Shown piece after piece: positions 5,273 to 55,049 of a DNA stretch of 64,000 nucleotides. Within the stretch, counting starts at the first letter, position 1. Every line of letters begins with the position of its first letter. Both the position numbers and the translations under genes were made by a program. This DNA comes from Sandaracinaceae bacterium (GTDB lineage Bacteria; Myxococcota_A; Polyangia; Polyangiales; Sandaracinaceae), in NCBI GenBank assembly GCA_040218145.1, contig JAVJQK010000105.1, positions 124,001 through 188,000 of the forward strand, written 5' to 3'. The notes under the pieces were generated by a model that saw only the letters and a list, made by a program, of their open reading frames with translations, made no database searches and was not told the DNA's origin.

Positions 5273-6435
5273 CAGGCGGCGAGCGCGGCTTCGGCCTCGT
5301 CGAGTAAATCACGGAGCGCGTGGAGGCGGACGAGGAAGGGCTCGCGGGTGCGTCGCAGGTACTTCCAGAAGGTCAGCGCCGCGTCCTCGCAGGGGAGGAG
5401 CGCCGCGTCGATCGCCTGGAGGCGCGCCGTCGCCTCCACGGCGCCGCTCGCCTTCGCCCGCTGCGAGAGCCGCACGAAGCGCTCCTGCACCTCGCCCAGC
5501 TGCCGCAGGCAGACGTGGTCGTCGGGCGTGGTCGTCCAGGCCGAGAAGTCCACGAGGCTGGTGCCCGCCGGGAGGTAGCGCTCGCTCGCCCCCGCCCGCC
5601 GCGCGTCGACCGCGTCGCTCCCGAGCACGAAGCGCACGCCCGCCTCGCTCAGCGCCTCGAGGCACGCGCGGTAGCTCTCCAGGGTCCGCGGGCGCACCCG
5701 CTCGCCGTCGTCGCCGAGCACGAGGAGATCCGCGCCCGAGTCGTAGTGCGCGCCGACCGCGTCGACGAAGGCGCCGATGCGCTCGGGCCGGTGGAGCGCG
5801 CCGCGCTGCGTGTCCACCAGGTCCCAGCTCAGGGCGTGGTGGCGCAAGAGGGCATGGACGGTCTCGTCCCCGAACGTCAGGCGGTGCACGAGGCCGAGCT
5901 CGCGCGCGGCGACGAGCGGTGAGAGGTCGGGGGCGAGCACGCGGTGGCCGCGCACGCGCTCCTCACGCCACGACGGCCGCACGGAGCCCTCCACCGCGGC
6001 GGCGCTGTCGACCGCCACCCAGTCCACGCCCTGCGCGGCGACCAGCGGCACCAGCCAGTGCGCCCACCCGAGATCGGTGGGCCAGAAGCCGCGCGGGCGC
6101 GCGCCGAGGATCGCGCGCTTGGCCTCGACGTCGGCCTCGATCTGCCGCCGGGCGCGATCGTGCGGCATCGTCGGCAGCATCGGGTGGAACTTGCCGGACG
6201 CGACGAGCTCCACGCGGCCGGCCGTGGCGTCCTCGCGCACCGCCTCCACCCACCCGGGGGCGAGCGTGGCGAGGCGCTCGAGCAGGCCTCCGCACACGTT
6301 GAGGGTGAAGGGCACGTCGAGCTCGCGGTGCAGCGCGAGCAGCGGCGCGTAGCTCTCGACGTGCTGCGCCTCCAGCTCTGCGTCGGGCACGAAGAAGGGC
6401 TGGTGGACGTGCCAGATCAGCGCGAGATCACGCAT
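5260..6435 (-). CDS. GH57-like protein with Asp at the usual nucleophile position
   Basis: 391 aa. Glycoside hydrolase family 57 signatures are present in order: HQP at 11-13 (region 1), GRVEL around 73-77 (region 2), GFWPTDLGW at 116-124 (region 3) and LGDDGE at 240-245 (region 4, containing the acid/base Asp). In active GH57 amylases, branching enzymes and glucanotransferases, region 3 carries a Glu nucleophile (WPSE or WLxE type). Here the aligned residue is Asp121. The ATG at 6435 is used because the beta-strand ALIWHVHQP must be near the N terminus; a GTG two codons upstream is possible. It overlaps the upstream glycosyltransferase by 8 bp, suggesting a glucan-related operon. Activity is uncertain. 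Confidence 0.85.
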   Translation of the reverse strand: MRDLALIWHVHQPFFVPDAELEAQHVESYAPLLALHRELDVPFTLNVCGGLLERLATLAPGWVEAVREDATAGRVELVASGKFHPMLPTMPHDRARRQIEADVEAKRAILGARPRGFWPTDLGWAHWLVPLVAAQGVDWVAVDSAAAVEGSVRPSWREERVRGHRVLAPDLSPLVAARELGLVHRLTFGDETVHALLRHHALSWDLVDTQRGALHRPERIGAFVDAVGAHYDSGADLLVLGDDGERVRPRTLESYRACLEALSEAGVRFVLGSDAVDARRAGASERYLPAGTSLVDFSAWTTTPDDHVCLRQLGEVQERFVRLSQRAKASGAVEATARLQAIDAALLPCEDAALTFWKYLRRTREPFLVRLHALRDLLDEAEAALAACYGS

Positions 6436-7585
6436 CGACACGTGCCCCACGAGCGAGGGCGTACTCGCGCGCGACCTCGCCCCCGACGCGATCCCAGGAG
6501 CACGTCTCGGCGCGCGCGCGCGCGGCGCGGCCCATCGCCTCGACGTCGCCCGCGAGCACGCGGATCGCCGCCGCCGCGAGCTCTCCCCCGTGCGGCGGGC
6601 AGACGAAGCCGTCGACGCCGTCGCGGACGAACTCGGGGGCGCCGCCGAGGCTCGACGCCACCGCGGGGGTGCCGCAGGCCATCGCCTCGAGCGTGGACAG
6701 ACCGAAGGGCTCGTACACCGACGCGCTGACGAACGCGTGCGAGCGTCGGTAGAGGTCGCGCAGCGCCGCGTGGCGCACATAGCCGTGCAAGGTCACCGCG
6801 TCGCGCAGGCCGCGCCGGTCGATCTCCGCCTCGAGCGCCGCCCGCCCCGGACCGTCGCCCGCGATCTCGAGCCGCGCACGGGGCATCGCCTCGCGCACGC
6901 GGGCGAAGGCGGCGAGCAGCAGGTCGAGCCCCTTCTGTTCGCTGAGCCGGCTGACGGAGAGCAATGTCGGGACCTCCGCCCGCCGGCCGCCGGGCGAGAA
7001 GGCCTCGAGATCCACGCCGTTGAGCACGACCCCGACGCGATCGGCGTCCACGTCGTACTCTCGCTCCAGGAGATCGGCGACGTAGCGGCTGGGCGCGACC
7101 ACCCGGGACGCGAGCCGGAGCCCCAGGGTCTCGAGTCGGACCTTGGCGCGCAGGGGGACGTCGTGATTGGCGTAGGTGAAGCCGAAGCGGAGCGGGAGGT
7201 GCGCGCTCGTCACCACGGCCGCGCCGCCCCGCGCGAAGGCGGCGGCGGGCAGGGCGCCGTACCAGTCGTGCAGGTGGAGCAGATCGAAGGGGGCCTCCCA
7301 GAAGGCGCCGCGGGGCCGCGTCATCGCTCTCGACACGTCGGCGTCACAGAGCACGGTGCGTCCGTCGAGCGCCGCGAAGTCGACGTCGACCGGCTCGACG
7401 CGCACGCCGGCGCGGGCGTCGCCCTCCACGGCGCGGGGCGGGTCGTCGGCGTAGCGCTCACCGCGCACCACGATCACCCCGACCTCGTTCGCGTGCGCCT
7501 GACGCGTCGCGAGGTTCTCGAGGAAGGTCGAGATGCCCCCGATGCGCGCGGGCGGGTATTCGCCAGCGAGATGCAGGATGCGCAT
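6428..7585 (-). CDS. GT4-family glycosyltransferase, glycogen-synthase-like N terminus
   Basis: 385 aa from the ATG at 7585 (a codon 15 bp upstream is also in frame). The N-terminal MRILHLAGEYPPARIGGIS has the Gly-rich donor-binding loop of GT-B synthases. The C-terminal half has the GT4 pattern LSVSRLSEQKGLDLLL, GDGP, and the EPFGLSTLEAMACGTPAVASSLGG motif with the E-x7-E nucleotide-sugar site. It probably transfers an NDP-hexose, perhaps glucose. The downstream gene starts inside its last codons and is GH57-like, a pairing seen in alpha-glucan metabolism. No transmembrane segment, so cytoplasmic. Confidence 0.88.
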   Translation of the reverse strand: MRILHLAGEYPPARIGGISTFLENLATRQAHANEVGVIVVRGERYADDPPRAVEGDARAGVRVEPVDVDFAALDGRTVLCDADVSRAMTRPRGAFWEAPFDLLHLHDWYGALPAAAFARGGAAVVTSAHLPLRFGFTYANHDVPLRAKVRLETLGLRLASRVVAPSRYVADLLEREYDVDADRVGVVLNGVDLEAFSPGGRRAEVPTLLSVSRLSEQKGLDLLLAAFARVREAMPRARLEIAGDGPGRAALEAEIDRRGLRDAVTLHGYVRHAALRDLYRRSHAFVSASVYEPFGLSTLEAMACGTPAVASSLGGAPEFVRDGVDGFVCPPHGGELAAAAIRVLAGDVEAMGRAARARAETCSWDRVGGEVAREYALARGARVDA

Positions 7586-7653
7586 GGCCGTACGTAGCAT
7601 CGCCGATCGTCCCCCGGTTTGGGAGGGTGCATGGGACGGTGTATGGGAGGGCG

Positions 7654-8904
7654 ATGGACGACTGGCAGCGGACGGCGCAGGAGATCGAGGGGCTCGAGCA
7701 CGTCCCGCGCGGGGTCATCGCCTACATGCGCGCCGGCCACGCGAGCGCGTACCCGCCGATCTTCGAGAGCGCCTCGGGGGTGTACGCGACCGCGGCCGGG
7801 GGACGCCGCTACCTCGACTGGGTGATGGGCAAGGGGCCGCTGACGTTCGGGCACGCGCGCGAGGAGATCGACCGCGCGGCGTTCGAGGCCGCGCGTCGCG
7901 GGCAGCTCCGGCCCGGCCTGAGCCCGGACTACGGCGCGGTCGCGGCGCAGCTCGCCCGGCTCGTCCCGCCCATGCGCTCGAGCGCGTTCGCCAAGAACGG
8001 ATCGGACGCCGTCGCCATCGCTCTCCGCCTCGCGCGCGTCTTCACCGGGCGCGGCTGGGTCCTCAGCAGCGGCTATCACGGCTGGGACGAGCGCGTGTCG
8101 CCCTCGGGCGCGGTCGACGCGACCCTGCCGGCGCGCGACGCCGGGGTGGCGGACTTCGGCTACGACCTCGAGCGGCTCGCCGCGGTGCTCGCCGCCGACG
8201 GCGATCGCGTCGCCGCGGTGCTCGTCAGCCCGGAGCCCGCGTTCCTGGGCGCGCCGTTCCTGGAAGAGGTGGCGTCCCTCGCGCGCGGCGCGGGCGCGCT
8301 CTTCTGCGTGGACGAGGTGCGCTGCGGCTTCCGGGTCGCGCCCGGCGGCGCGCACGCGCTCTTCGGGGTGGAGCCGGATCTCGTGTGCCTGAGCAAGGGG
8401 CTGACCAACGGCTACCCGCTCGCCGCGGTGGGCGGTCGTGAGGACGTGATGGCCTCGAGCCGGGACACGTTCATCTTCGGCACCTACTACGGCGAGGCGG
8501 CGTCGCTCGCGGCGGCCCGCGTCTGCCTGGCGCTGACCGAGGCCGAGCGGCCGCACGAGGCGATCGCGGCCGTCGGCGCGCGGCTGTCGGAGGCGATGGA
8601 CGCCGCGTTCGCGGAGCACGGGGTCCACGCGCACGTGCTCGGGCCCCCGTCGATGCCGACCTTCCTCTTCGCCGAGCCCGAGGACGAGGCGCGCTTCTTC
8701 GCAGGCGCGGTCGACGCGGGCGTCCTCTTCTTCCAGGACGACGCGCAGTGCCCCTCCGCCGCGCACGAGGCGGCCCACGTCGACGAGACGCTGCGGGCGC
8801 TGGGCCCGGTGCTCGCGGGCCTCGGCCGCCCCGCGCGGCCCGCGTCTGCGAGCGCGGAGACCATCGACCGCTACGCGCGTCGGCGTGGGATCCTGCGCGG
8901 CTGA
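7654..8904 (+). CDS. Class III aminotransferase, glutamate-1-semialdehyde aminomutase type
   Basis: 416 aa from the ATG at 7654, preceded by a GGGAGG ribosome-binding site at 7645-7650. It shows fold-type I class III features: YPPIFESASGVY near the N terminus, KNGSDAVAIALRLAR, YHGWDE, the cofactor-binding DEVRCGFR, and the PLP lysine K248 in LSKGLTNGYPLAAVGG. The sequence resembles GSA aminomutase-like enzymes used in sugar or secondary metabolism more than HemL itself, so I give no symbol. It is divergent from the glycosyltransferase across 68 bp. The substrate is unknown. Confidence 0.87.
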   Translation: MDDWQRTAQEIEGLEHVPRGVIAYMRAGHASAYPPIFESASGVYATAAGGRRYLDWVMGKGPLTFGHAREEIDRAAFEAARRGQLRPGLSPDYGAVAAQLARLVPPMRSSAFAKNGSDAVAIALRLARVFTGRGWVLSSGYHGWDERVSPSGAVDATLPARDAGVADFGYDLERLAAVLAADGDRVAAVLVSPEPAFLGAPFLEEVASLARGAGALFCVDEVRCGFRVAPGGAHALFGVEPDLVCLSKGLTNGYPLAAVGGREDVMASSRDTFIFGTYYGEAASLAAARVCLALTEAERPHEAIAAVGARLSEAMDAAFAEHGVHAHVLGPPSMPTFLFAEPEDEARFFAGAVDAGVLFFQDDAQCPSAAHEAAHVDETLRALGPVLAGLGRPARPASASAETIDRYARRRGILRG

Positions 8905-40153: not shown

Positions 40154-41101
40154 CTACGGGATCGTCGGGAACGAGGGCGGCGGGGCCTCGGCCGCCCGCT
40201 CCAGGAGCGCGAGCAGGCCGGCGGCGAAGGCCTGCAGGACCTCGAGCGCGAGGTCGGGGTGATCTTCCCAGACGTCCACCGTCAGATCGCGCCCCATCGA
40301 GAGCGCCACGAGCCCCTCGCCCACCTCGGCCGAGTACCAGCGCGGGACCTGCCCCAGCGCGTCGAGGCCGCCCGCGAGATCTCCCGCGCCCAGCTCGAAC
40401 GCGAGGCCGTCCTCGGTGCGACAGCGCAGCGTGCCGCAGACGATGGCGAGGGCGTCGTCGGCGCGGTCGCCGACCTTCCACACCACGCGGCCGGGCTCGG
40501 CGCGGATCTCCTCGGCCCCCTTGGCCAGCTCCGCGAGGCTGTCGATGCGGCCGGCGCCGAAGGCGAGGGTCCGGCGGAGGAAGAAGATGCGCTCCACCAG
40601 ATCGAGGGCCTGGGCCGGGCACTGATCCCCCGCGCTGCTGCGGGTGGGGAAGCCCGCGCTCGGCGGGAGGCGGCGCCGGAGCTCGACGTTCTCGCGCGCG
40701 AGCTCGCGGATGACGGCGAGCAGGATCGGGAAGCGATCCTCGAACAGCTCCTCCAGATCCTCGGCGTGCAGCTCGAGCACGACGGAGTCCCGGGTGGCGA
40801 GGCAGTCGTAGCCGCGCGGATCGCGCGCGAACGCCGCGAGGCCGCCGACGCCCGAGCTCTCGCGATAGAGGCCCAGGCGCTTGCCGCCGCGGCTCAGCGC
40901 GAGCTCGCCTTCGAGCACGAGCAGCACCGTCTGGATGGGCTGGCCCTCCGTGAACACCTGCTCGCCCACGCCGATGCGGCGGGGCCGGGCGATGGCGGCC
41001 AGGGTCACGAGATCGCGCGTCGGCAGCTCGCTCCAGCCCGGGAAGCTGCGCATCGCGACGAGCCGCTCCACGCGACCGACGAGGGGCTCAGGCGAGGACA
41101 C
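40154..41101 (-). CDS. Protein with two cyclic-nucleotide-binding-like domains
   Basis: 315 aa from GTG 41101. The first cNMP-like beta-roll covers about residues 15-130 (GEQVFTEGQPIQTVLLVLEGELAL, then GVGGLAAFARDPRGYDCLATRDSVVLEL). A degenerate second roll covers about 185-300 (GRVVWKVGDRADDALAIVCGTLRC). The consensus phosphate-binding GE-x-x-A-R is not intact in either, so ligand binding is doubtful. No DNA-binding domain. It overlaps the transporter-HEAT gene by 14 bp; in related bacterial NTT-like proteins HEAT and cNMP domains are fused on one chain, so this is probably its cytoplasmic regulatory subunit. Confidence 0.78.
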   Translation of the reverse strand: MSSPEPLVGRVERLVAMRSFPGWSELPTRDLVTLAAIARPRRIGVGEQVFTEGQPIQTVLLVLEGELALSRGGKRLGLYRESSGVGGLAAFARDPRGYDCLATRDSVVLELHAEDLEELFEDRFPILLAVIRELARENVELRRRLPPSAGFPTRSSAGDQCPAQALDLVERIFFLRRTLAFGAGRIDSLAELAKGAEEIRAEPGRVVWKVGDRADDALAIVCGTLRCRTEDGLAFELGAGDLAGGLDALGQVPRWYSAEVGEGLVALSMGRDLTVDVWEDHPDLALEVLQAFAAGLLALLERAAEAPPPSFPTIP

Positions 41102-43844
41102 CGCGCATCCCTCTCGGCGCGAGCAGCTCGAGCGCGCGCGCGACGACCTCGCGCGCGAGCCCGGTGGCGCCCTCGTTGGCGTCGCGCAGCGGCTCGGCGA
41201 GCTCCGTCAGGCCCAGCTCGCCCACGTGATGGGCGACGATCGACCGCACCGCCTGGCTCTGATCGTCGAGCATCTCGCGCAGCAGCGCCTGGTAGCCGTC
41301 CGGCAGCGGTCCCAGGCTCGTCGTCTCGCGCACCCGGCGGAGTCTGTCCTCGTCCGGCGCGTCGTCGAGCAGCGCGTCGAGGGTGGGTGAGAGGCTCAGC
41401 CAGGTCAGCGCCCCGAGTAGCTCGCGGCTCTCCGCGCGCAGCCGCCGCGAGCCGTGGCGCAGCGCGTGGGTGATCCGCCGCAGGTCCTCTCGAGGGTGTG
41501 CGAGCGCGATGAGCCGCACCGCCCGATCCAGCGCCTGCTCCTCCTTCTCGCGCAGGGCCGAGGCGAGCAGCTCGCCGCCGCGGGTCCGGAGCGACTCGTC
41601 TTCGGCGTGCGCGCGCGCGACCATCACGCGCCGGGCGAGCATCTCCGCCGCGCGCTCCAGGTTCTTGCGGACGCTCGCCTCGAGCCGCCCCTCGTCGAGC
41701 CTCAGGCTGGGGAGCTTCTCGCGCAGGGACAGCAGCCCGCGGAGGATCTTGTACCGGACCCAGCCGTCGGGCTCGTGGTCGAGCCGCTCGAACAAGATCT
41801 CCGCCGCGCGCGGGGTCCCGAAGCGAGAGATGCTCCGCGGGAGGTGGCCGCGGACCTGCCGCGGGAGCGACCGATCGTCGAACGCGCGATCGAGCGCCTC
41901 GAGGGCGTCCTGCCCCAGCGCCATCAGGGCGTCCCGGCTCTCGTGGCGGGCGCCGCGCGGGCCGAGCCAGCCGATCAGGATGGGGAGCGCGTCGGGATCA
42001 CGGATGCCCGCGAAGCCGCGCGCCAGCTCCCGACGCAGCTCCGGCGTCGCGCCCCGCGTGAGCTCGTGGAGCACCGGCGCGAGGCTCCGGTCCCCCTGCA
42101 GCCGGATCGCGCGGGCGAGCGCGACCTGCACCTCAGGCTCGTGGCTCTCCACGCACTCGTCGATCTCCGCCCGCGCTTCACCGTCCGCGTCGAGGCCGCG
42201 CGCGACCAGCGCCGCGAGCACCGACGCCCGGACCGCGGGGGGGTGGCCGCCCTGCAGCTCGCGGTGCAGCTCGTCCTCGCTCATCACGCCGCTGAGCGCG
42301 CGCATGGCCGCGGCGCGGATCTCGTCGTCCTCGCGTTCGAGGAGACGACGCGCCACCGACATGAAGTCCGTGCGCTCGCCGTCGCCGAAGAGCTCGAGCG
42401 CGCGCAGGACCACCGCGCGCGAGGGGTGATAGAGGAGGAGCGCCGGGATGAGGCGGGTCCGCCCGTAGTCGGCGAGCACGTCGAGCGTGGCCAGCACCTC
42501 CTCGTCGCGCTCGCTGTTCAGCGACTGCATCAGCGACTCGAGCGAGCCGAGGTCCAGCTGGGGCACCTCGGCCCGCGTCTCCACCGTGCCCGCGCGGAGG
42601 TTCGCGCGGAACAGGTCCAGGTAGGAGCGGCGCAGCGTGAGGGCGAGCACCACCCAGCCGACCGCGAGCGCGCCGACCGCGATGGCCAGCTGCTCGCTCT
42701 GGAGCCCGACGAACCCGGCGCCGAGGATGGCCAGCGAGCCGAGCGCCTGCCCACCTCGCTGCCCGAGCGAGTCGATCACGGTCTTGTAGCGGTCCCGGAT
42801 CTCTCGGCTGAGCGGGAGGTACAGGAGCTCGAACGCGGAGCGATGCAGGGAGTGGCGGAGCGCCCCATCCGCGCCGCGGAGCGCCATGGCGGGGTAGAGC
42901 ATCGCGCCGGCCGCCCCCGCGATGAGGGCGCCGACCGCGCCCATCGCGAGCAGCGCCGGCAGCACGACGAGGGCGCGTGTGGCGCCGAGGGCGCTGAGGA
43001 GGCGCGGCGCGATCGCCAGCTGCACCACCAGCGAGACCACGTTGAGCACGAGGTAGAACTGGCTGAAGAACGGTCCGAGCTCGGCCGTGCTCAGCTCGCG
43101 GTCGATCGTCGCCTTGAAGACGTAGTCGACCATGATCGCCGTGATGGACGTCAGGGCGACGAGGAGCAGCAGCCGGCCGACGTAACCGCGGCGCCCGCGC
43201 ACGGACTGCTCGTCCGGCTCGCTGCGCGTGGGCTCGGCCGCCACGGGCTCGGGGCTCGGGACGCAGAGCCCGGGGATGGCCGCGGTGATCGCGAGCAGGC
43301 CCGCGCCGACGAGCACCAGGCCACGCGGAGGCAGCCAGCCCTGCGCCACGCTGGCGATGGACGCGCCGGCCACCGCGCCGAGCGAGCCGCCGGCCGCGAT
43401 GCGCGCGTACAGCTGCCTCGCCTCCGCGACGGTGAAGAGGTCGGCCAGCAGCCGCCAGAACTGGGCCACCGCGAACGTCGCGACCAGCCCCGTCCAGATG
43501 TAGAAGGCGTGGGCGATGAGGAACGTGTCCTCGTCGAAGCCCACCCAGAAGCAGACCGTGCCCCCGGAGGCGAAGAGCAGGGTGAAGACCGAGATGCGGC
43601 GCTTGTCGAACCGCTCGATCAGGAAGCGGTCGATCTGCGCGGCCACCCAGGCGGCGGCGGCGATGCCCAGATACGTGAAGGGCAGCTGCTCGGCGGGGAG
43701 GTGGGTGAGGAAGAGCGCGTCGCGCGCGACCTCGAGGACCGTGTGCCCCGCCAGGAGCGTGAAGAGAGTCGCCGCGGCCGCCAGCGCGTGGCGGCCGTTC
43801 TCGATGCCGTGGCCCGGCGAGAGCCTCTCCAGAAAACGGCGCAT
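41088..43844 (-). CDS. NTT/MFS-like transporter fused to HEAT repeats
   Basis: 918 aa. Residues 1-420 have about 11-12 hydrophobic helices in the pattern of ATP:ADP antiporter-like (NTT, MFS superfamily) proteins (GHTVLEVARDALFLTHLPAEQLPFTYLGIA, VAQFWRLLADLFTVAEARQLYARIAAGGSLGAVAG). Residues about 430-918 are helical HEAT-type repeats (VLRALELFGDGERTDFMSVARRLLEREDDEIRAAAMRALSG and similar). The substrate may be a nucleotide, but specificity cannot be read. It overlaps the cNMP-binding gene, forming a two-gene unit. An unusual inverted-repeat structure lies upstream (43937-44035). Confidence 0.82.
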   Translation of the reverse strand: MRRFLERLSPGHGIENGRHALAAAATLFTLLAGHTVLEVARDALFLTHLPAEQLPFTYLGIAAAAWVAAQIDRFLIERFDKRRISVFTLLFASGGTVCFWVGFDEDTFLIAHAFYIWTGLVATFAVAQFWRLLADLFTVAEARQLYARIAAGGSLGAVAGASIASVAQGWLPPRGLVLVGAGLLAITAAIPGLCVPSPEPVAAEPTRSEPDEQSVRGRRGYVGRLLLLVALTSITAIMVDYVFKATIDRELSTAELGPFFSQFYLVLNVVSLVVQLAIAPRLLSALGATRALVVLPALLAMGAVGALIAGAAGAMLYPAMALRGADGALRHSLHRSAFELLYLPLSREIRDRYKTVIDSLGQRGGQALGSLAILGAGFVGLQSEQLAIAVGALAVGWVVLALTLRRSYLDLFRANLRAGTVETRAEVPQLDLGSLESLMQSLNSERDEEVLATLDVLADYGRTRLIPALLLYHPSRAVVLRALELFGDGERTDFMSVARRLLEREDDEIRAAAMRALSGVMSEDELHRELQGGHPPAVRASVLAALVARGLDADGEARAEIDECVESHEPEVQVALARAIRLQGDRSLAPVLHELTRGATPELRRELARGFAGIRDPDALPILIGWLGPRGARHESRDALMALGQDALEALDRAFDDRSLPRQVRGHLPRSISRFGTPRAAEILFERLDHEPDGWVRYKILRGLLSLREKLPSLRLDEGRLEASVRKNLERAAEMLARRVMVARAHAEDESLRTRGGELLASALREKEEQALDRAVRLIALAHPREDLRRITHALRHGSRRLRAESRELLGALTWLSLSPTLDALLDDAPDEDRLRRVRETTSLGPLPDGYQALLREMLDDQSQAVRSIVAHHVGELGLTELAEPLRDANEGATGLAREVVARALELLAPRGMRGVLA

Positions 43845-45095: not shown

Positions 45096-48000
45096 ATGCA
45101 AGCGCGCGGCGACTTCATCGACGGGAGCTTCCACGCTCCCACCGGAGACACTTTCACGAGCCACGACCCCGCCCGAGGCGGTCAGGTCGTGCTGGAGACG
45201 GCGGGCTCGCCCGAGCGCGTGGGCCAGGCCTGCGAGGCCGCGGCCGCCGCCCAGCCCGCGTGGGCCGGCCTCGACTTCGACGCCCGGCTCGCGGCGCTGA
45301 TGCGCTTTCGCGCCGCCCTCGCCGAACGCGAGGATGGGCTGAGCGAGGCGATCAGCCGCGAGATGGGCAAGATCCGGAGCGAGGCCCGGACGGAGATCAA
45401 GGCGCTCGTGGGGCGCTTCGCCCTGGTCGAAGGCCAGGTCCGCGCGGAGCTGAGCGGCGGCGCCATCCCGGGCTTCCCGGCCGAGGTCATCCGCTACCGA
45501 CCCCACGGCGTGGTCGGCGTGCTCGGCCCGTTCAACTTCCCCCTGCACCTCTGCCACGCGCACGTCGTGCCGGCGCTCCTCCTGGGCAACACGGTCGTGA
45601 TCAAGCCGAGCGAGATCACGCCCCTGTCCGGGGAGCGCTACGCGGAGGCGGCCCAGGCGGCCGGGCTGCCGCAGGGCGTCTTGAACGTGGTGCAGGGCGG
45701 CGGCGCGGTCGGCGCGGCCATCGTCGCGAACCCGCACGTGCGCGGCCTCGCCTTCACCGGCTCCTGGGGCACCGGGCGGCGCATCTCCGAGGCGGCGCTC
45801 GACCGGCCCGACATGCTGCTCGCGCTCGAGATGGGCGGCAAGAACATGTGCGTCGTCCGCGAGGACGCCGACCTCCGGCAGGCCATCCACGAGGTGATCA
45901 CGAGCGGCTACCTGACCACCGGCCAGCGCTGCACCTGCTCCGACCGCGTGCTCGTGCACCGCAGCCTCGCCGGGCGGCTCGTCGACGGCCTGCGCGCGGT
46001 GCTGGCGGAGCTGTCCTTCGGAGACCCCGAGGACCCGGCCTCGTTCGCCGGCCCGCTCGCCACGATCGCGGCGCGGGATCGCTTCGTGAAGACCCTCGAG
46101 CAGGCCCGCGCGAAGGGCGCCGAGCCGATCGTCCCCGGCGGCGCACGTGAGGGCGGGGCGTTCGTCGCGCCCTCGCTCCACCGCCTGGCCGACGGAGTGC
46201 ACGAGCTGGCCGGATACACCGACGAGGAGCTCTTCGGCCCCGATCTCTGCGTCGAGACCTTCGATGACGACGACGAAGCGATAGCGGCGCTCAACGCGTC
46301 GCCCTACGGCTTCGCATACAGCATCTTCACCCAGGACCTGGAGCGCTTCGGCCACTACGAGCGGCAGGTGCGCACCGGGATCCTCAACCGCAACCGGAGC
46401 ACCAACAAGGCCAGCCCGCGCCTGCCCTTCGGCGGGGTGAAGAAGAGCGGCAACTTCCGTCCCGCGGGCGCCTGGGCCGGGCGCAATCTCGCCTATCCCA
46501 TGGCGGAGATCCACAACGGCGCCGGGGTCTACGACCGCCACGCGCACATCGAGCCGCTCCTGCCGGCGAGCGACCTGGACCAGCTCGAGGCGCAGCACGC
46601 GGGCGAGGAGGAGGCGGAGCTCCGTCGCACGCTCTTCGACACGCCGCGTCCCTTGCAGGTGCTCCTCCCCGAGGGAGGGGAGCTGCCCGAGTCCGACGCG
46701 CTGCACGAGCGCTTCTACGCCGGCGACCGCTACGTCAGGGGCGAGAAGAAGCCGCCGGTCTTCGACCACCTCCGCTCGAAGGGCCCGTGGATGGTCTCCA
46801 TCGACGAGGCGCCGATGAGCGTGATCGACGGGATGAGCCAGACGGCGACCATCCCGGCCGGCTTTGGCGCCGACGCCATCGTGCGCGCCTACGTGGAGGG
46901 CGACTTCGGCGACGCGCCGCTGAGCAGCGGGGACACTACGCTCGGCGACGACCCCCACGCGCTCGCGTTCGCCGAGACCCTGCGCGGGCTCGCCCCGGGG
47001 CTGCCCACGGTGAGCTTCGTCAACAGCGGCGCGGAGGCGAACGAGAAGGCTTACGCGCTCTGCCGGCTACAGAAGCCGGAGCGCACCAAGCTGCTCGCGT
47101 TCGAGGGCAGCTTCCACGGCCGCACGATGCTCGCGCTCTACGCGAGCTGGAATCCGTCCAAGCGCGTGCCCTTCCAGATCGCCGGCTACGAGGTCGACTT
47201 CGCGAAGGCCCCTTCGCGGGAGGTCTTCGAGGACGGCGAGCCCATCGAGCCCGAGGGCTGGACGGAGGTCTGGGGCGGCGGCGACGTCGAGGCGGCCAAA
47301 GCCCGCTGGGGCAGCTCCCCCGACCCGCTCCTCGCGGCCGAGGTCGCCGCGCTCGCCGACGTGGACGAGCGCCTGGCCACCGAGACGCACTTCGCGGTCG
47401 TGATCGAGCCCATGCAGAGCGAGGGCGGCGATCGATACGTCAGCGCGCGCTACCAACGCGCGCTCCGGCTGCTGACGCGCGCCCGCGACGTGCCGCTCGT
47501 CGTCGACGAGGTGCAGTGCGGCTTCGGCCTCGGGGGACCGTTCCTCTGGCACCAGCGCTTCGGCTACGTCGACCGCGACGGTCAGCCCGACACGCCGGAC
47601 TGCGTCTGCTTCGCGAAGCGCGCGCAGGTCGGCGTGTGCATGAGCGTCTTCGAGGACCCCGAGCCGACGAGCGCCTTCCCCGCCTCGCTCGCGCGCGGCC
47701 GGTTGCACGCCGAGAGCGTCGGCGACGGCAGCGACGCCGCGCGCATCGAGGCCCTCGTGCGGCCGCGGCTCGAGGCGCTGCATCGGCGCTGGAGCCACCG
47801 CATCGAGAACCCGCGGAGCGAGGGCTTCGCGCTCGCCTTCGACGTGGCCGACTCGGACACCCTGATGGCCTACCTCGGCCAGCGCTTCTGGCGCGGCGTG
47901 GTCGTCTTCGGCGCGGGCTCGCGCACGGTGCGTTACCGGCTGAACAGCAGCTTCGACGCGCGCACGCTCGACACCCTCTTCGAGTCCATGCAGCGCTCGC

Positions 48001-49679
48001 TCGCGTGGATCGAGGCGCACCCGGGTAAGAAGCCGCCGGCGTGGGAGGACTTCGCGTCCGGCCGGACGGACGACGTCGCCGCGCCGCCGGTCACCGTGCG
48101 GGTGGCGGACCCGGCGGAGCGCGAGGCGCTGATGGAGGCCATCGTCGCGCTCGAGGCCGAGGTCTACGAGCCGGCGCGGCGGGACAGCCCGGAGCGCCTC
48201 GGGCTCGCCTTCGCCGAGGGCGGCGTGGCGGTGATCGCGGAGACCGAGGAGAGCGGCGACAAGCGGGTGATCGGCACCGCGCTCGCCGCCCCGCTCGAGG
48301 CGGTCGAGGGCGTCGACGGGGCGGACCGCGACCCGATGCGCGGCCGGCACAACACGCTCTACTCCCTCGCCGTGACCGTGCACCCGGACTACCAGGGGCA
48401 CGGGATCGGGCGACGGCTGAAGCTGGCGCAGCTCACGCAGGCCCGCGCGATGAAGAAGGACGGCGCCGGTCGCTACCGCCACGTCACCGCGCGCAACCGC
48501 TTGCCCGACGCGAGCTCCATGGCGCGGCTGAACGACTCGCTCGGCGCCTACACGGTGTTCCTGCTCGAGGGTCAGTACGAGGGCGACGGGGTGGCGCGCT
48601 ACTACCGCCAGCCGCTCGGCCGCTTCGAGCCGGATCCCGTGCGCGTCGTCGAGCGGAGCGCGCCCACGCACGACCTCGCGGCGGGCATCGCCAGGCCCTT
48701 CGCCGCTCCGCCGGCGTCGCTGGTGAAGCTCCACGAAGCGGGCGCGCTCTACGGCCCGACCGTCAACAAGGTGACCGTGCTCAACTACCTCACGCCCGCG
48801 GTGGTCCGCGCGACGGAGTGGGTGGGCGCGCTGACGCCCAGCTTGCCGCACGCGTATCTCTGCTCGAGCCGGGACGAGACCGTCGACAAGTCGGTCCGCG
48901 TGCTGCGGTGGCACCGCCCGCACGCCCAGAAGGTGATCTCCTTCGAGGGCACCTACGTCGGCCACACCGCGTCGGGCGCCCGCTCGATCAGCGATCCGGC
49001 GACCCACGCGCAGGGCGCGCCCTACTTCGACTGGCCTCGCGTGCCGCACCCGGCTGACGGGCTCGACGAGAGCCTGTCCGCGCTCCGGAGCGAGATCGAG
49101 CGCGCCGGCGGCGGTGATCAGGTGTTCGGGCTCTACCTCGAGGTGGTGCAGGAGCGAACCGGCCGCGTCGTGCCCGACGCGTTCTGGCCCGCGCTCGCGG
49201 AGCTGCGCGCGGAGACCGGCGTGCCGGTGGTCGTCGTCGAGACGGCGAGCGCGTACTACCGCTCGGGCCGAGGCGCGTTCGCCCTGGACGGGATCGACTT
49301 CCAGCCGGACCTGATGATCTGGTGGACCGGCGGGCAGCTCGGCTTCGTGCACGTCACCACGCCCTACCTCGTGAACAAGCCGCTCACGCTCGTCAGCACC
49401 TGGGACGGCGACGAGCTGAGCCTCGTCCAGGCTCACCACCAGCTGCGCGCGGCGCGCGGGCTGGATCTGCAGCCGGCGATCGCGGCGCTCGACGAGGCGC
49501 TCGCCGGGGTTCGGAGCCGTGGCCTGGGCCTGCACCGCGTGCTCGAGGGCGTCGACGCGACGCGTCTCGAGGCGGCCGGGATCCGCGGGCGGCGCCTGCC
49601 GGGAGATCGCCTGGCGGTCACGCTCCAGCTGGACGCCGCCGCCGCGCAGGCACAGGCCCTGCGCGACGCGTTGGGTTGA
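45096..49679 (+). CDS. Four-domain fusion: ALDH, class III aminotransferase, GNAT, second aminotransferase-like domain
   Basis: 1527 aa in one uninterrupted frame. Domain 1 (about 1-490) is an aldehyde dehydrogenase closest in motifs to succinylglutamate-semialdehyde dehydrogenases, with Glu245 (LEMGGKN) and Cys279 (GQRCTC). Domain 2 (about 540-985) is a class III aminotransferase with [25 protein letters not shown] and PLP Lys841 (CFAKRAQVG). Domain 3 (about 1005-1190) is a GNAT with [21 protein letters not shown]. Domain 4 (about 1210-1527) repeats the aminotransferase layout ([12 protein letters not shown]), but the lysine position reads WWTGGQLG, so it is probably a structural or regulatory pseudo-domain. 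A channelled route for diamine, ornithine or lysine breakdown (transaminate, then oxidise, with N-acylation) is inferred. Confidence 0.85.
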
Positions 49680-51351: not shown

Positions 51352-52122
51352 TCAGACGGCCGAGCGACGCACGAACCGGTAGAGCGCGGCGGGGCGGTGG
51401 TCGACGTCGCGCTGGCGCTCGCCCGTCGCCTCGAGCTGTCCGGACGCGAGCATGCGGCGGCGGAAGCTGTCCTTGTTCAGCGGACGGTCGAGCACGACCT
51501 CGTGCACGCGCTGGAGCTGGCGCAGGGTGAAGCGCGGAGGGAGGAGCTGGAACCCGATCGGCGTGTAGTCGAGCTTCCCGCGGATGCGCTTGACCGCCAT
51601 GCCGAGGATGTCCGCGTGGTCGAACGCAAGCTCGGCCGGCTCACCGTCGATCGACACGTCCACCGGCCCGCCCGTCTCGCCCTCCCAGGGCACCGCGAGG
51701 CGCGCCGTCAGGGCGGGGTGTTCCTCCTGGTCGATCGCCTCGAAGCGCTTGGCGTCCACCAGCGCGTAGTGCGCCACGGTGACGACGCGGGTCCGCGGGT
51801 CGCGCTCCACCGCGCCGAAGGTGTAGAGCTGCTCCAGGAAGACGTCTCGCAGCCCGGCCTTGGTGAGCAGCACGCGCTCGGCCGCCTCCTCGATCGACTC
51901 GTCCATGCGCACGAAGCCGCCGGGCAGGGCGGCCGCGCCGTCCCAGGGGTGCTCGGTGCGACGCACGAGGAGGGTCGCGAGCGCGTCGTCCACCACGCTC
52001 AGGAGCGCGACGTCCACCGTGAGCGACGGGCGCTCGTACGCGCTCGCGTCGTAGCCGGCGAGGAACTCGGCTTCGGTCTGGGGCTTCTTCGGTCGGCGTC
52101 TCTTGGGGGGTGACTTCGGCAT
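51352..52122 (-). CDS. NrtR-like Nudix-fold regulator
   Basis: 256 aa. A Lys/Pro-rich start is followed by a Nudix fold (about 35-165). The Nudix box region GGFVRMDESIEEAAERVLLTKAGL keeps its glycine and first Glu but has lost the REUXEE catalytic glutamates (RVLLTK instead). The C-terminal 70 residues form a winged helix (FTLRQLQRVHEVVLDRPLNKDSFRRRML). This combination is that of NrtR, an ADP-ribose-sensing repressor of NAD salvage. No NAD genes are adjacent, so the target is unknown. It is divergent from a small Tat lipoprotein. Confidence 0.85.
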   Translation of the reverse strand: MPKSPPKRRRPKKPQTEAEFLAGYDASAYERPSLTVDVALLSVVDDALATLLVRRTEHPWDGAAALPGGFVRMDESIEEAAERVLLTKAGLRDVFLEQLYTFGAVERDPRTRVVTVAHYALVDAKRFEAIDQEEHPALTARLAVPWEGETGGPVDVSIDGEPAELAFDHADILGMAVKRIRGKLDYTPIGFQLLPPRFTLRQLQRVHEVVLDRPLNKDSFRRRMLASGQLEATGERQRDVDHRPAALYRFVRRSAV

Positions 52123-52159: not shown

Positions 52160-52651
52160 ATGGATCTCGGACCTTGTACCGCATGCGCGCGCCACGTCCG
52201 CCTCGATGAGATGCGCTGCCCGTTCTGTGGTTCCGCCGCGCTCGCGCGCCCCGGCGCCGTCCGGACGGTGAGCCGGCGCGCCTTCACCCGCGCCGCGGTC
52301 TTCGTCGGCGCGGCGGTGCTCGGCGCCTGCGGCGGCGACGAGATCGCCTACGAAGGCGAGGAGACGGGGACGGGCGGCGGCGAGGAGACCGACTTCGCCT
52401 CCGACACCGACGCCGATGGTTCGGACCCGCAGACGCGCGAGCATGACGAGCGCCAGACGCAGCAGATCCAGGAGCGGGAGCGGCAGGCGGAGGAGCGCCG
52501 GCTCCGTGACGAGCGCGCGATGGAGGAGCTCGAGCGGCAGCGGGAGCTCGAGGAGCAGGACTGGCGCGATCAACGCCGGCACCGGAACCCGTGCGTGGAC
52601 GGCGTGTGCCCGCCCTACGGCACGCCGCCCGCGCGCGACCTGCTGGTCTGA
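52160..52651 (+). CDS. Zinc-ribbon/Tat-signal hybrid lipoprotein
   Basis: 163 aa from the ATG at 52160. Residues 6-24 hold CTACARHVRLDEMRCPFCG, a zinc-ribbon-like four-Cys motif. This is followed by a twin-arginine segment SRRAFTRAAVFVGAAVLGACGG ending in a lipobox-like LGAC. The mature part is acidic and Gly/Thr-rich, then a charged coiled coil (about 100-145, ERERQAEERRLRDERAMEEL) and a two-Cys end (NPCVDGVCPPYG). A cytoplasmic zinc ribbon before a Tat signal is odd; it may act as a folding checkpoint. Confidence 0.65.
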   Translation: MDLGPCTACARHVRLDEMRCPFCGSAALARPGAVRTVSRRAFTRAAVFVGAAVLGACGGDEIAYEGEETGTGGGEETDFASDTDADGSDPQTREHDERQTQQIQERERQAEERRLRDERAMEELERQRELEEQDWRDQRRHRNPCVDGVCPPYGTPPARDLLV

Positions 52652-52704
52652 GCTGGCGCGTCCGAGCTGGCAGACGCGCGGCGGCCGGTGCACGCTCCGT
52701 TCGT

Positions 52705-53811
52705 ATGGAAGTCCTGACGATCCCCTCCGGTCTCGACGCCCGCGGCCGTGGGCGCGTGCACGGCGAGCACTTTCGCGCGCGCATCCACGAGATCGCGCAG
52801 CTCCGCCTCGAGCTCGCCCTCTCCCAGGGCAAGTTCGCGTCCTCCATGGAGGTCGTCGAGACGGCGCGGCTGCACCTGCCGGTGCTCGAGGGCTTCGACG
52901 CGCCGCTCCACGCGGAGCTGCTCGGGATCGCCGAGGGCGCCGACCTCGACCCGGCCAAGCTGGTGGTGCTCAACCACTACACCGACCTGAAGGACGTCGA
53001 CCCGAAGCGGCTCGATCCGTCGAAGGGCGGGGAGGGCACGGGCAACGAGGACGAGGACTGCTCGGTCGTGCTCGCCGGCACCCCGGAGGGCGTGTTCCTG
53101 GCGCAGACCTGGGACATGCACGGCAGCGTCGAGCCCTACGTGTGCCTGCTGAGCCTGCCCGAGCACGACGGCCGGCCGGCGCTCCACACCTTCACCATCA
53201 CGGGCTGCCTCGCCCTCGCGGGCATGAACGCGCACGGCGTCGGGGTGAGCATCAACAACCTCAAGTCCCACGACGCGCGGGTCGGCGTGGTCTGGCCCGC
53301 CCTCGTCCGGCGCCTGCTCGCCGAGGACAACGCGAGCGCGGCCAAGCACGTGCTGATGACCGCGCCGATGTCGAGCGGCCACCACTACGCCATCTGCGAC
53401 GGCGAGCGCGGCTATGGCGTGGAGACGAGCGGCGAGAAGAAGGCGGTGATCTTCGACGCCACCTTCGCGACCGAGCCCGGCGCCCGCCTCATCCACACCA
53501 ACCACTGCGTCGACCCCGGCGTGGCGTCGGTGAGCTGGGTGAGCGACTGGTCGACGAGCTACGACCGGCACGACTGGCTCACCCGTTCCGTCGAGGCGCG
53601 GGCGATCGAGGGGCGCGACGACCTCTGGTCACGCCTCGCCACGCACGAGGGCTACCCCCGAAGCGTCTGCACGCACCTCGCGAGCGACGAGCAGCCGCAC
53701 GCGATGAAGACCTGCGGCGCCATGCTCTGCGACTTCGGCAGCCGGACCCTCTACGCCCACCATGGTTGCATTCACGGCGTCATGCCGACGCCCTTCGGGT
53801 TCGACGCGTGA
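52705..53811 (+). CDS. Acyl-CoA:6-aminopenicillanate acyltransferase-like (C45) Ntn hydrolase
   Basis: 368 aa from the ATG at 52705. Motifs of the C45 penicillin acyltransferase family are visible: the presumed autoprocessing cysteine C119 in DEDCSVVLA, then WDMHGSVEPYVCLL and ITGCLALAGMNAHGVGVSINNL. In this family self-cleavage before the Cys yields an N-terminal nucleophile. Substrates range from beta-lactams to amino-acid amides, so the true one is unknown. The next gene starts at GTGA overlapping its stop. Confidence 0.86.
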   Translation: MEVLTIPSGLDARGRGRVHGEHFRARIHEIAQLRLELALSQGKFASSMEVVETARLHLPVLEGFDAPLHAELLGIAEGADLDPAKLVVLNHYTDLKDVDPKRLDPSKGGEGTGNEDEDCSVVLAGTPEGVFLAQTWDMHGSVEPYVCLLSLPEHDGRPALHTFTITGCLALAGMNAHGVGVSINNLKSHDARVGVVWPALVRRLLAEDNASAAKHVLMTAPMSSGHHYAICDGERGYGVETSGEKKAVIFDATFATEPGARLIHTNHCVDPGVASVSWVSDWSTSYDRHDWLTRSVEARAIEGRDDLWSRLATHEGYPRSVCTHLASDEQPHAMKTCGAMLCDFGSRTLYAHHGCIHGVMPTPFGFDA

Positions 53812-55049
53812 GCGAGGAGCCCTTCTTCTTCACCTGGAGCGTCCAGCGGGACGCTAAGGGGCTCGAGATCGTCGGCGGCGAAGGCGCGTTCTTCGACACC
53901 GCGGACGGAGAGCGCTGGCTCGACTTCGGGAGCCTCATCTATCACGCCAACCTCGGCCACGGGCACGGCCGAATGGTCGAGGCGATCAAGGCGCAGGCGG
54001 ACCGCCTCTGCCTGACCATGCCCAAGGCGATCTACCCGGAGAAGCGCGCCCTCGCGCAGAAGCTCCTCGAGCTGGCTGGGCCCGAGTACGGGAAGGTCTT
54101 CTTCACGCTCGGCGGCAGCGAGGCGAACGAGAACGCGCTCAAGATGGCGCGTCTGTTCACCGGGCGGCACAAGACCATCAGCCGCTATCGCAGCTACCAC
54201 GGGGCGTCGATGGGCGCGCTCTCGCTCACCGGTGACTACCGCCGGCCGCCGCTCGAGCCCGGGCTGCCCGGCGCGGTGAAGATGCTCGACTGCTACTGCG
54301 ACGCCTGCCCCTTCGGCAAGACGGTCGACACCTGCGCGCGAGAGTGCGCCACGCAGCTCGACGAGATCCTGCCGATGGAGGCCAACGTCGCCGCGGTCTT
54401 CCTCGAGAGCGTCCCGGGCGCGAACGGCGTGCTCATCCCGCCCGACGACTACTGGCCGAAGGTGCGCGAGGCCTGCGATCGGCACGGCGCGCTGCTCGTG
54501 GCCGACGAGGTGCTCTGCGGCTTCGGCCGGACGGGGAAGTGGTTCGGCTACCAGCACTGGGACGTGTTGCCGGACATGATCACCGTCAGCAAGGGCCTGA
54601 CCGGCGGCTACGGCGTGCTCGGCGCGGTGATCGTCAAGCGGCACGTCGCGGACTTCTTCGAGGAGCGCACCCTGCTCGCGGGTCTCACCCACTACGCGCA
54701 CCCGCTCGGGGTCGCGGCCGCGCTCGAGGCGATCGCGGTGTACGAAGACGAGGGCCTCATCGAGCGCGCCGCCGCGCTCGGCCCGAAGCTCCTCGCCGCC
54801 CTGCGCGAGCTCGCCGTCTCCGAGCCCCGCGTCCGCCACGTCCGCGGCCTCGGCTTGCTCGCCGCGCTCGAGCTCGACGCCGACGACGCGACCCTCGCCC
54901 GTCTCGCCGGTGAGCTCGCCGCCCGCCGCCTCTACGTGCACGTCCGCTCGCGCGAGAAGACCCTCGTCATCGCGCCCCCGCTATGCATTCAGGAAGAATC
55001 GTTGCACGACGGGGTCCGCCGCATCGCGGACGCGCTCGGGTCAGTCTGA
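53808..55049 (+). CDS. Class III omega-aminotransferase
   Basis: 413 aa from GTG 53808, overlapping the upstream stop by 4 bp. Fold-type I features are LDFGSLIYHANLGHGH, FFTLGGSEANENALKMAR, YRSYHGASMGALSLTGD, VADEVLCGFGRTGKWFG and PLP lysine K262 in TVSKGLTGGYG. A five-Cys cluster (CYCDACPFGKTVDTCARECA) lies after the YHG motif and might bind metal or form disulfides; it is found in some of these enzymes. Coupled to the C45 acyltransferase, hence probably acting on the amine released or acylated by it. It converges with the AraC gene (9-bp overlap). Confidence 0.88.
   Translation: MSEEPFFFTWSVQRDAKGLEIVGGEGAFFDTADGERWLDFGSLIYHANLGHGHGRMVEAIKAQADRLCLTMPKAIYPEKRALAQKLLELAGPEYGKVFFTLGGSEANENALKMARLFTGRHKTISRYRSYHGASMGALSLTGDYRRPPLEPGLPGAVKMLDCYCDACPFGKTVDTCARECATQLDEILPMEANVAAVFLESVPGANGVLIPPDDYWPKVREACDRHGALLVADEVLCGFGRTGKWFGYQHWDVLPDMITVSKGLTGGYGVLGAVIVKRHVADFFEERTLLAGLTHYAHPLGVAAALEAIAVYEDEGLIERAAALGPKLLAALRELAVSEPRVRHVRGLGLLAALELDADDATLARLAGELAARRLYVHVRSREKTLVIAPPLCIQEESLHDGVRRIADALGSV

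Follow-up and report, generated by a model that had tools for sequence, protein, structure and literature searches.

A conserved ALDH-aminotransferase-GNAT-aminotransferase fusion protein of Myxococcota with a predicted composite active site and a candidate diamino-acid operon

What reaction sequence would require an aldehyde dehydrogenase (ALDH), an aminotransferase, an acyltransferase, and a second aminotransferase-like domain without a catalytic lysine to be carried on one polypeptide? This question is raised by a 1,527-residue open reading frame (ORF) in a Sandaracinaceae bacterium (assembly GCA_040218145.1, contig JAVJQK010000105.1, positions 124,001 to 188,000; this whole 64,000-nucleotide stretch is referred to here as the window). 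The two aminotransferase domains are designated AT1 and AT2, giving the order ALDH-AT1-GNAT-AT2. The best overall explanation, which we regard as reasonably probable, combines an intramolecular pseudo-dimer of AT1 and AT2, consecutive steps on a diamino acid, and β-lysine as the substrate; its parts are graded separately below.

An intact four-domain protein

The ORF is confirmed as an intact four-domain protein comprising an ALDH, a class III aminotransferase, a GNAT acyltransferase, and an aminotransferase-like domain. Pfam detected Aldedh at residues 16-462 (E 4e-116), Aminotran_3 starting at residue 553 (E 8e-48), and Acetyltransf_1 at residues 1016-1126 (E 3e-5); a second Aminotran_3 match (39.3 bits versus a cutoff of 30.5) was obtained when residues 1190-1527 were scanned alone. 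Refined domain limits are given in Table 1. The ORF has a strong GC3 coding bias (G+C at the third codon position; 0.74/0.50/0.96). The catalytic residues named in a first-pass annotation of this DNA (ALDH Glu245 and Cys279, AT1 Lys841) are in place and conserved among homologs, and its description of the single frame, the domain order, the AstD-like ALDH, the pyridoxal 5′-phosphate (PLP)-dependent class III aminotransferase, and the GNAT domain held up throughout. Misassembly or a frameshift-derived fusion, which that annotation had named as a possible refutation, is rejected, as homologs with the same frame and domain order occur in other genomes.

A predicted composite PLP site shared by AT1 and AT2

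AT1 has the hallmarks of an active class III aminotransferase, uniting the Schiff-base lysine (K841), the aspartate for PLP N1 (D804), and the phosphate loop (G645-A646) in one domain. PF00202 scored 163.6 bits for the whole protein and 133.5 for the AT1 part alone (cutoff, 30.5). The domain falls in the group of ArgD and L-lysine 6-transaminase (LAT), although it lies outside LAT proper (97.1 bits versus the TIGR03251 cutoff of 520.8), and it resembles γ-aminobutyrate aminotransferase (GABA-AT) as well as LAT. In the PDB, AT1 is closest to LAT, which occupies Foldseek ranks 1 to 4; a VIA-align comparison of the structural model with the PDB gave LAT a Z score of 31 and 2.3 Å over 396 residues, an alignment that covered AT1 only.

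In LAT of Mycobacterium tuberculosis, each active site is assembled from two subunits: one provides Gly128, Ala129, Phe167, His168, Arg170, Glu238, Glu243, Asp271, Val273, Gln274, Lys300, and Arg422, and the other provides Ser329, Thr330, and Asn328, with Ser329 and Thr330 reaching PLP across the interface (PMC9780415). The corresponding AT1 residues G645, A646, F673, H674, R676, E771, E776, D804, V806, Q807, K841, and R946 are each conserved in 41 to 42 of 42 sequences, and the retained equivalents of Arg170, Glu243, and Arg422 form the set used for carboxylate-bearing ω-amino substrates. The partner-subunit loop, on the other hand, is missing from AT1, as its profile shows a gap at LAT NSTWGG.

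AT2 presents the complementary picture. The two domains are mutually homologous (hhalign probability, 98%), and the AT2 profile aligns along LAT residues 71-443, placing WW(G/T)GGQ on F298-G299-K300 and STWDGDELS on S329-T330-W331. At the positions of LAT Gly128, Ala129, Arg170, Glu243, Asp271, Gln274, and Lys300, AT2 carries Arg, Asp, His, Arg, Val/other, Ala/Thr, and Gly/Thr, respectively. Thr1411 within WWTGGQLG aligns with LAT K300, which bears out the threonine that the first-pass annotation had placed at the lysine position, and the only invariant lysines of the domain, K1225 and K1265, lie elsewhere, so a displaced PLP lysine was not found in AT2. In contrast, S1434 through L1441, including S1434/T1435, are invariant in all 42 sequences. 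A more distant group of homologs (∼37 to 45% identity) shows the same split, with AK[RK]A in AT1 and STWDG[DE] in AT2. As a separate observation, the AT2 loop is acidic at three invariant positions (D1437, D1439, and E1440) that would be expected near PLP, where LAT has Gly, Asn, and Leu.

Because AT2 keeps the PLP-contacting loop that AT1 has lost, its most likely role is to provide one indispensable half of an active site. We consider it highly probable that AT1 and AT2 form an intramolecular pseudo-dimer of the LAT/GABA-AT type in which each chain has a single composite PLP site. In such an arrangement, AT1 would contribute the Schiff-base lysine, the N1 aspartate, the substrate arginines, and the phosphate loop, AT2 would contribute the Ser-Thr loop that a partner subunit provides in ordinary dimers, and the mirror-image second site would be dead. 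A symmetric homodimer in which each subunit lends the Ser/Thr loop to the other is at odds with the sequences, since the loop is present only in the lysine-less AT2. AlphaFold2 modeled the 1,035-residue AT1-GNAT-AT2 portion as a single chain with a predicted local distance difference test score (pLDDT) of 90.6 and a predicted template modeling score of 0.91; alignment and model together strongly favor the proposed pairing geometry and single site.

The first-pass annotation had suggested that the fourth domain dimerizes with or regulates the second. The pairing half of that suggestion is retained, whereas a merely dimerizing or regulatory role fits poorly with a domain that keeps the loop lost by AT1. 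In the corresponding alternative, AT2 would be a catalytically irrelevant pseudoenzyme serving stability, channeling, or regulation, and AT1 would homodimerize between chains. Although AT2 has indeed lost the lysine and PLP-binding residues, an AT1-AT1 dimer would have no Ser-Thr pair at either site, and the invariance of this loop in AT2, the distant group included, makes the alternative quite improbable.

The ALDH and GNAT domains

NCBIfam AstD models were the best matches to the ALDH domain (395 and 387 bits), both below the model cutoffs; for the AstD equivalog TIGR03240, the score of 386.6 bits against a cutoff of 579.3 places the domain outside AstD proper. AstD structures were also the top PDB matches, and identity is 38% to Escherichia coli AstD and 33% to GabD. 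In succinate-semialdehyde dehydrogenase (SSADH), two arginines bind the substrate carboxylate. The ALDH domain lacks both, as GabD MITRK and FRNAGQTC correspond to LCHAH and LTTGQRC (Ala and Leu instead), and AstD lacks them likewise; judged by these arginines, the domain is not an SSADH.

The GNAT domain scored 29.0 bits against PF00583 (cutoff, 20.7) and has an intact acetyl coenzyme A (acetyl-CoA) motif, QGHGIG (Q/R-x-x-G-x-G). Foldseek retrieved ArsN, RimI, and phosphinothricin acetyltransferases, a mixture of small-molecule and protein N-acetyltransferases with no clear winner, and NCBIfam gave weak RimI and AAC(6′) matches only. No model of the β-lysine N-acetyltransferase AblB matched the window domain up to an E value of 1 or 30 family members up to 0.01.

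Distribution and history of the fusion

The fusion is conserved across the phylum Myxococcota. A search of nine genomes from the bacterium's own family, one of them the source of the window, found the gene in every one, with 54 to 71% identity in the eight others; eight of the nine matches were single and near full length, and that in G007 consisted of two stretches within one open frame. For a wider view, 84,980 species genomes were scanned with two conserved short peptide patterns, a method that could miss distant forms. The 49 loci retrieved are recorded under Myxococcota, Deltaproteobacteria, or unspecific lineages of metagenome-assembled genomes. About 33 of them, some from the same genomes as the own-family set, encode the full set of domains, in the same order, within a single frame, and six encode AT1-GNAT-AT2 without a fused ALDH. 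An AT2 profile matched 49 of 379 Myxococcota genomes at an E value of 2e-65 or better, the matches being split into a close group and the distant group mentioned above.

Members of the distant group differ in how the ALDH is encoded: L085, L090, L091, and L093 have it as a gene of its own immediately before AT1-GNAT-AT2, L092 has an upstream ALDH fragment, and L088, L095, L096, and L097 have the fused form. This alternation of separate and fused forms, a “Rosetta stone” pattern, indicates a functional partnership of the ALDH with the three-domain protein, and the history appears to have run from operon to fusion.

Three further relatives deviate from the common plan. L102 (G009:C18, 6733-8790, minus strand) encodes a 685-residue ALDH-GNAT fusion (53% and 44% identity to the window domains) with no aminotransferase domains; it adjoins an OpuAC-type ABC transporter, which does not help in fixing a substrate. 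L099 (5998-8991, minus strand) and L098 (2710-7008, plus strand) are decayed relatives with adjacent CoA-transferase genes in which the GNAT is well kept (52 to 53%) and the aminotransferase motifs, including STWDGD, were not found.

Conserved neighbor genes

Downstream of the fusion lie genes for a C45/AAT-family N-terminal nucleophile hydrolase (C45), a complete class III aminotransferase (AT3), and two CoA-transferase subunits (CoTA and CoTB). For 45 loci, 5 kb or more of downstream sequence is available; counting same-strand genes no more than 6 kb away, 34 of these loci have AT3, 30 have C45, 30 have CoTA, and 20 have CoTB. The operon C45 protein scores above the NCBIfam C45 cutoff, and its sole PDB relative found was the acyltransferase 2x1c/2x1d. 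The closest PDB structure to AT3 is taurine:2-oxoglutarate aminotransferase (6jix). CoTA and CoTB reach the cutoffs of the pcaIJ/scoAB 3-oxoacid CoA-transferase family, CoTB being closest to succinyl-CoA:3-ketoacid CoA-transferases. In the window, C45 and AT3 sit 3 kb downstream of the fusion, behind intervening genes, and the AT3 start codon overlaps the C45 stop (GTGA); the operon-type CoTA and CoTB of this genome (67% and 72%) are encoded on a different contig.

Other neighbors were noted. Between the fusion and C45-AT3 in the window is a gene for an NrtR-type Nudix regulator (51352-52122, minus strand), which could regulate the system or have nothing to do with it. In L033, the fusion is immediately preceded by a gene for a divergent FHA/SpoIIE-type phosphatase (6337-8175, minus strand), with equivalents in ∼20 loci, many labeled Kofleriaceae or Deltaproteobacteria; its position possibly reflects synteny only. 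The window also encodes a 918-residue TLC ATP/ADP translocase/MFS-like transporter fused to HEAT repeats (41088-43844, minus strand).

Table 1. Coordinates of the fusion gene, its domains and key residues, and its partner genes in the window
Feature	Position	Strand	Basis
ALDH-AT1-GNAT-AT2 fusion ORF	45096..49679	+	1527 aa, no internal stop
ALDH domain (residues ∼7-473), AstD-like	45114..46514	+	NCBIfam AstD models, PDB AstD structures
ALDH Glu245	45828-45830	+	
ALDH Cys279	45930-45932	+	
AT1 (residues 493-985), class III aminotransferase	46572..48050	+	Pfam, closest structure LAT, conservation
AT1 Asp804	47505-47507	+	
AT1 Lys841	47616-47618	+	
GNAT domain (residues 993-1185)	48072..48650	+	Pfam, alignment, model pLDDT 93, Foldseek
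AT2 (residues 1196-1527), lysine-less class III aminotransferase half	48681..49676	+	Pfam, LAT alignment, conservation
AT2 Thr1411, PLP-lysine position	49326-49328	+	
AT2 loop STWDGDELS (residues 1434-1442), equivalent of LAT S329-T330	49395..49421	+	Conservation, LAT roles
C45/AAT-family N-terminal nucleophile hydrolase	52591..53811	+	PF03417 3e-12; 48% to operon C45, ortholog of operon partner
AT3, complete class III aminotransferase	53808..55049	+	PF00202 1.7e-82; 55% to operon AT3

Proposed pathway and substrate

In arginine catabolism by AstA, AstC, and AstD, acylation masks one amine before transamination and oxidation follow. We consider it somewhat better than an even chance that GNAT, AT1, and ALDH likewise catalyze consecutive steps on a diamino acid and that the partner proteins deacylate the product, transaminate it, and form a 3-oxoacyl-CoA. 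The GNAT domain would acylate one amine, preventing cyclization of the later semialdehyde; AT1/AT2 would transaminate the other, terminal amine; and the AstD-like ALDH would oxidize the acylated semialdehyde. C45 would then deacylate, AT3 would transaminate the freed β-amine, and CoTA/CoTB would form the 3-oxoacyl-CoA for thiolysis. Since the closest ALDH, AstD, uses an N-acylated semialdehyde and the operon includes an amidohydrolase, an early acylation undone by a later deacylation is a better fit than the order proposed in the first-pass annotation (transaminate, oxidize, and then N-acylate), which we do not retain; an acylate-transaminate-oxidize-deacylate order is moderately well indicated.

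The combination of an acyl-removing hydrolase, a β-amino-acid-type aminotransferase, and a 3-oxoacid CoA-transferase suggests that the product is a β-amino acid, which would become a β-keto acid and then a CoA ester. Our best guess at a substrate, a weak assignment that may well be wrong, is β-lysine, degraded through 3-aminoadipate and 3-oxoadipate to succinyl-CoA and acetyl-CoA. N3-acylation, ω-transamination, oxidation, and deacylation would yield 3-aminoadipate, transamination would yield 3-oxoadipate, and CoA transfer would follow. The full proposal of an undescribed Myxococcota pathway, in which one chain N-acylates, ω-transaminates at a composite PLP site, and oxidizes β-lysine while its partners carry the product to 3-oxoadipyl-CoA, is rather unlikely to be correct in every part.

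Several observations weigh against this proposal. Some distant loci have no nearby ALDH, and the partner genes are missing within 10 kb of the own-family loci L021, L035, and L061. The invariant acidic residues of the AT2 loop might bind a free ammonium group, suggesting that AT1 acts before acylation. No lysine-handling gene was found within the operon, and a KamA-like gene was found in no operon locus. The window's genome does have a lysine 2,3-aminomutase-like gene; however, 335 of 379 Myxococcota genomes have KamA-family matches, which do not discriminate, and KamA co-occurrence was dropped as a test of β-lysine because it is nearly universal in the phylum.

A different route on β-lysine could use exactly the same gene set. 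In Barker's work on Pseudomonas, N6-acetyl-β-lysine is reportedly converted to 3-keto-6-acetamidohexanoate and its CoA ester; thiolysis is said to give 4-acetamidobutyryl-CoA, and deacetylation GABA. GNAT would then perform the N6-acetylation, AT3 would form the keto acid, CoTA/CoTB the CoA ester, and C45 the deacetylated product, leaving AT1/AT2 as GABA-AT and the ALDH as SSADH for the last two steps. The similarity of AT1 to GABA-AT as well as LAT, the CoA-transferase, and the taurine-type AT3 all fit. However, an AstD-like ALDH with neither SSADH arginine is a poor match to the last step, for which reason we prefer the acylated-semialdehyde route; the fusion would also link the first reaction with the final two, and our literature search found no text on this pathway. 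We give it a small chance of being correct.

Slimmer still is the case for an AST-like (arginine succinyltransferase-like) core, in which the GNAT domain would acylate the α-amine of ornithine or lysine and AT1 and ALDH would act as AstC and AstD, yielding N-acyl-glutamate or N-acyl-aminoadipate. Such a core accounts for the ALDH being closest to AstD and for the placement of AT1 in the ArgD/LAT group, but it leaves AT3 and the 3-oxoacid CoA-transferase unexplained, the AstD equivalog cutoff is not reached, and AstA is absent from the genome. The AST pathway itself is rejected: AstA (PF04958) was not found in the window's genome, and two control genomes were positive.

Puu-like degradation of putrescine, cadaverine, or 1,3-diaminopropane via N-acetyl derivatives would follow the amine masking, oxidation, and unmasking logic of the Puu pathway with the GNAT, ALDH, and C45 of the operon, but it forms no 3-oxoacid, leaves the CoA-transferase unexplained, and ill suits an AT1 that retains the carboxylate-binding Arg170 and Arg422 equivalents of LAT, and we rate it the least probable. 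The acylated diamino-acid route remains preferred; of the channeled diamino-acid or polyamine route imagined in the first reading, the diamino-acid part survives as a general idea, and the polyamine part, together with a GABA route, is disfavored by the CoA-transferase and the taurine/β-amino-acid-type aminotransferase. If the proposal is right, the operon supplies candidate genes for the breakdown of a diamino acid, with β-lysine as the likeliest substrate, a route to whose enzymes, to our knowledge, no genes have been assigned.

Comparison with known systems

The partner proteins each have known relatives. The taurine:2-oxoglutarate aminotransferase 6jix is the closest solved relative of the operon AT3. 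PcaIJ and ScoAB share a family with CoTA/CoTB, which instead adjoin the fusion operon, and the C45 partner belongs to the acyl-CoA:6-aminopenicillanate acyltransferase family but stands in a catabolic context. AstD and the window ALDH have the GQRCTC and SGNxRP motifs in common and lack the SSADH arginines; unlike AstD, the window ALDH is fused to AT-GNAT-AT in a genome without AstA.

That a lysine-less half can complete a PLP site is already known in principle from other fold-type I enzymes, such as serine palmitoyltransferase (LCB1/LCB2) and the glycine decarboxylase P-protein. These belong to families other than the class III aminotransferases and are not fused to ALDH and GNAT. In the literature searched, which left most subscription journals outside, we found no pseudo-dimeric class III aminotransferase, no ALDH-AT-GNAT-AT architecture, and no genes for the pathway.

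LAT (Rv3290c, PDB 2cin) and mitochondrial GABA-AT share with AT1 the fold and the one-subunit PLP and substrate residues. LAT forms a homodimer whose two sites are equal, whereas in the window protein each half keeps its own share of one site within a single chain. If the proposed pairing is right, the protein would be a clear natural case of complementary degeneration in class III aminotransferases, in which a two-site symmetric homodimer became a one-site, one-chain pseudo-dimer with an acyltransferase between its halves and an ALDH added from the operon.

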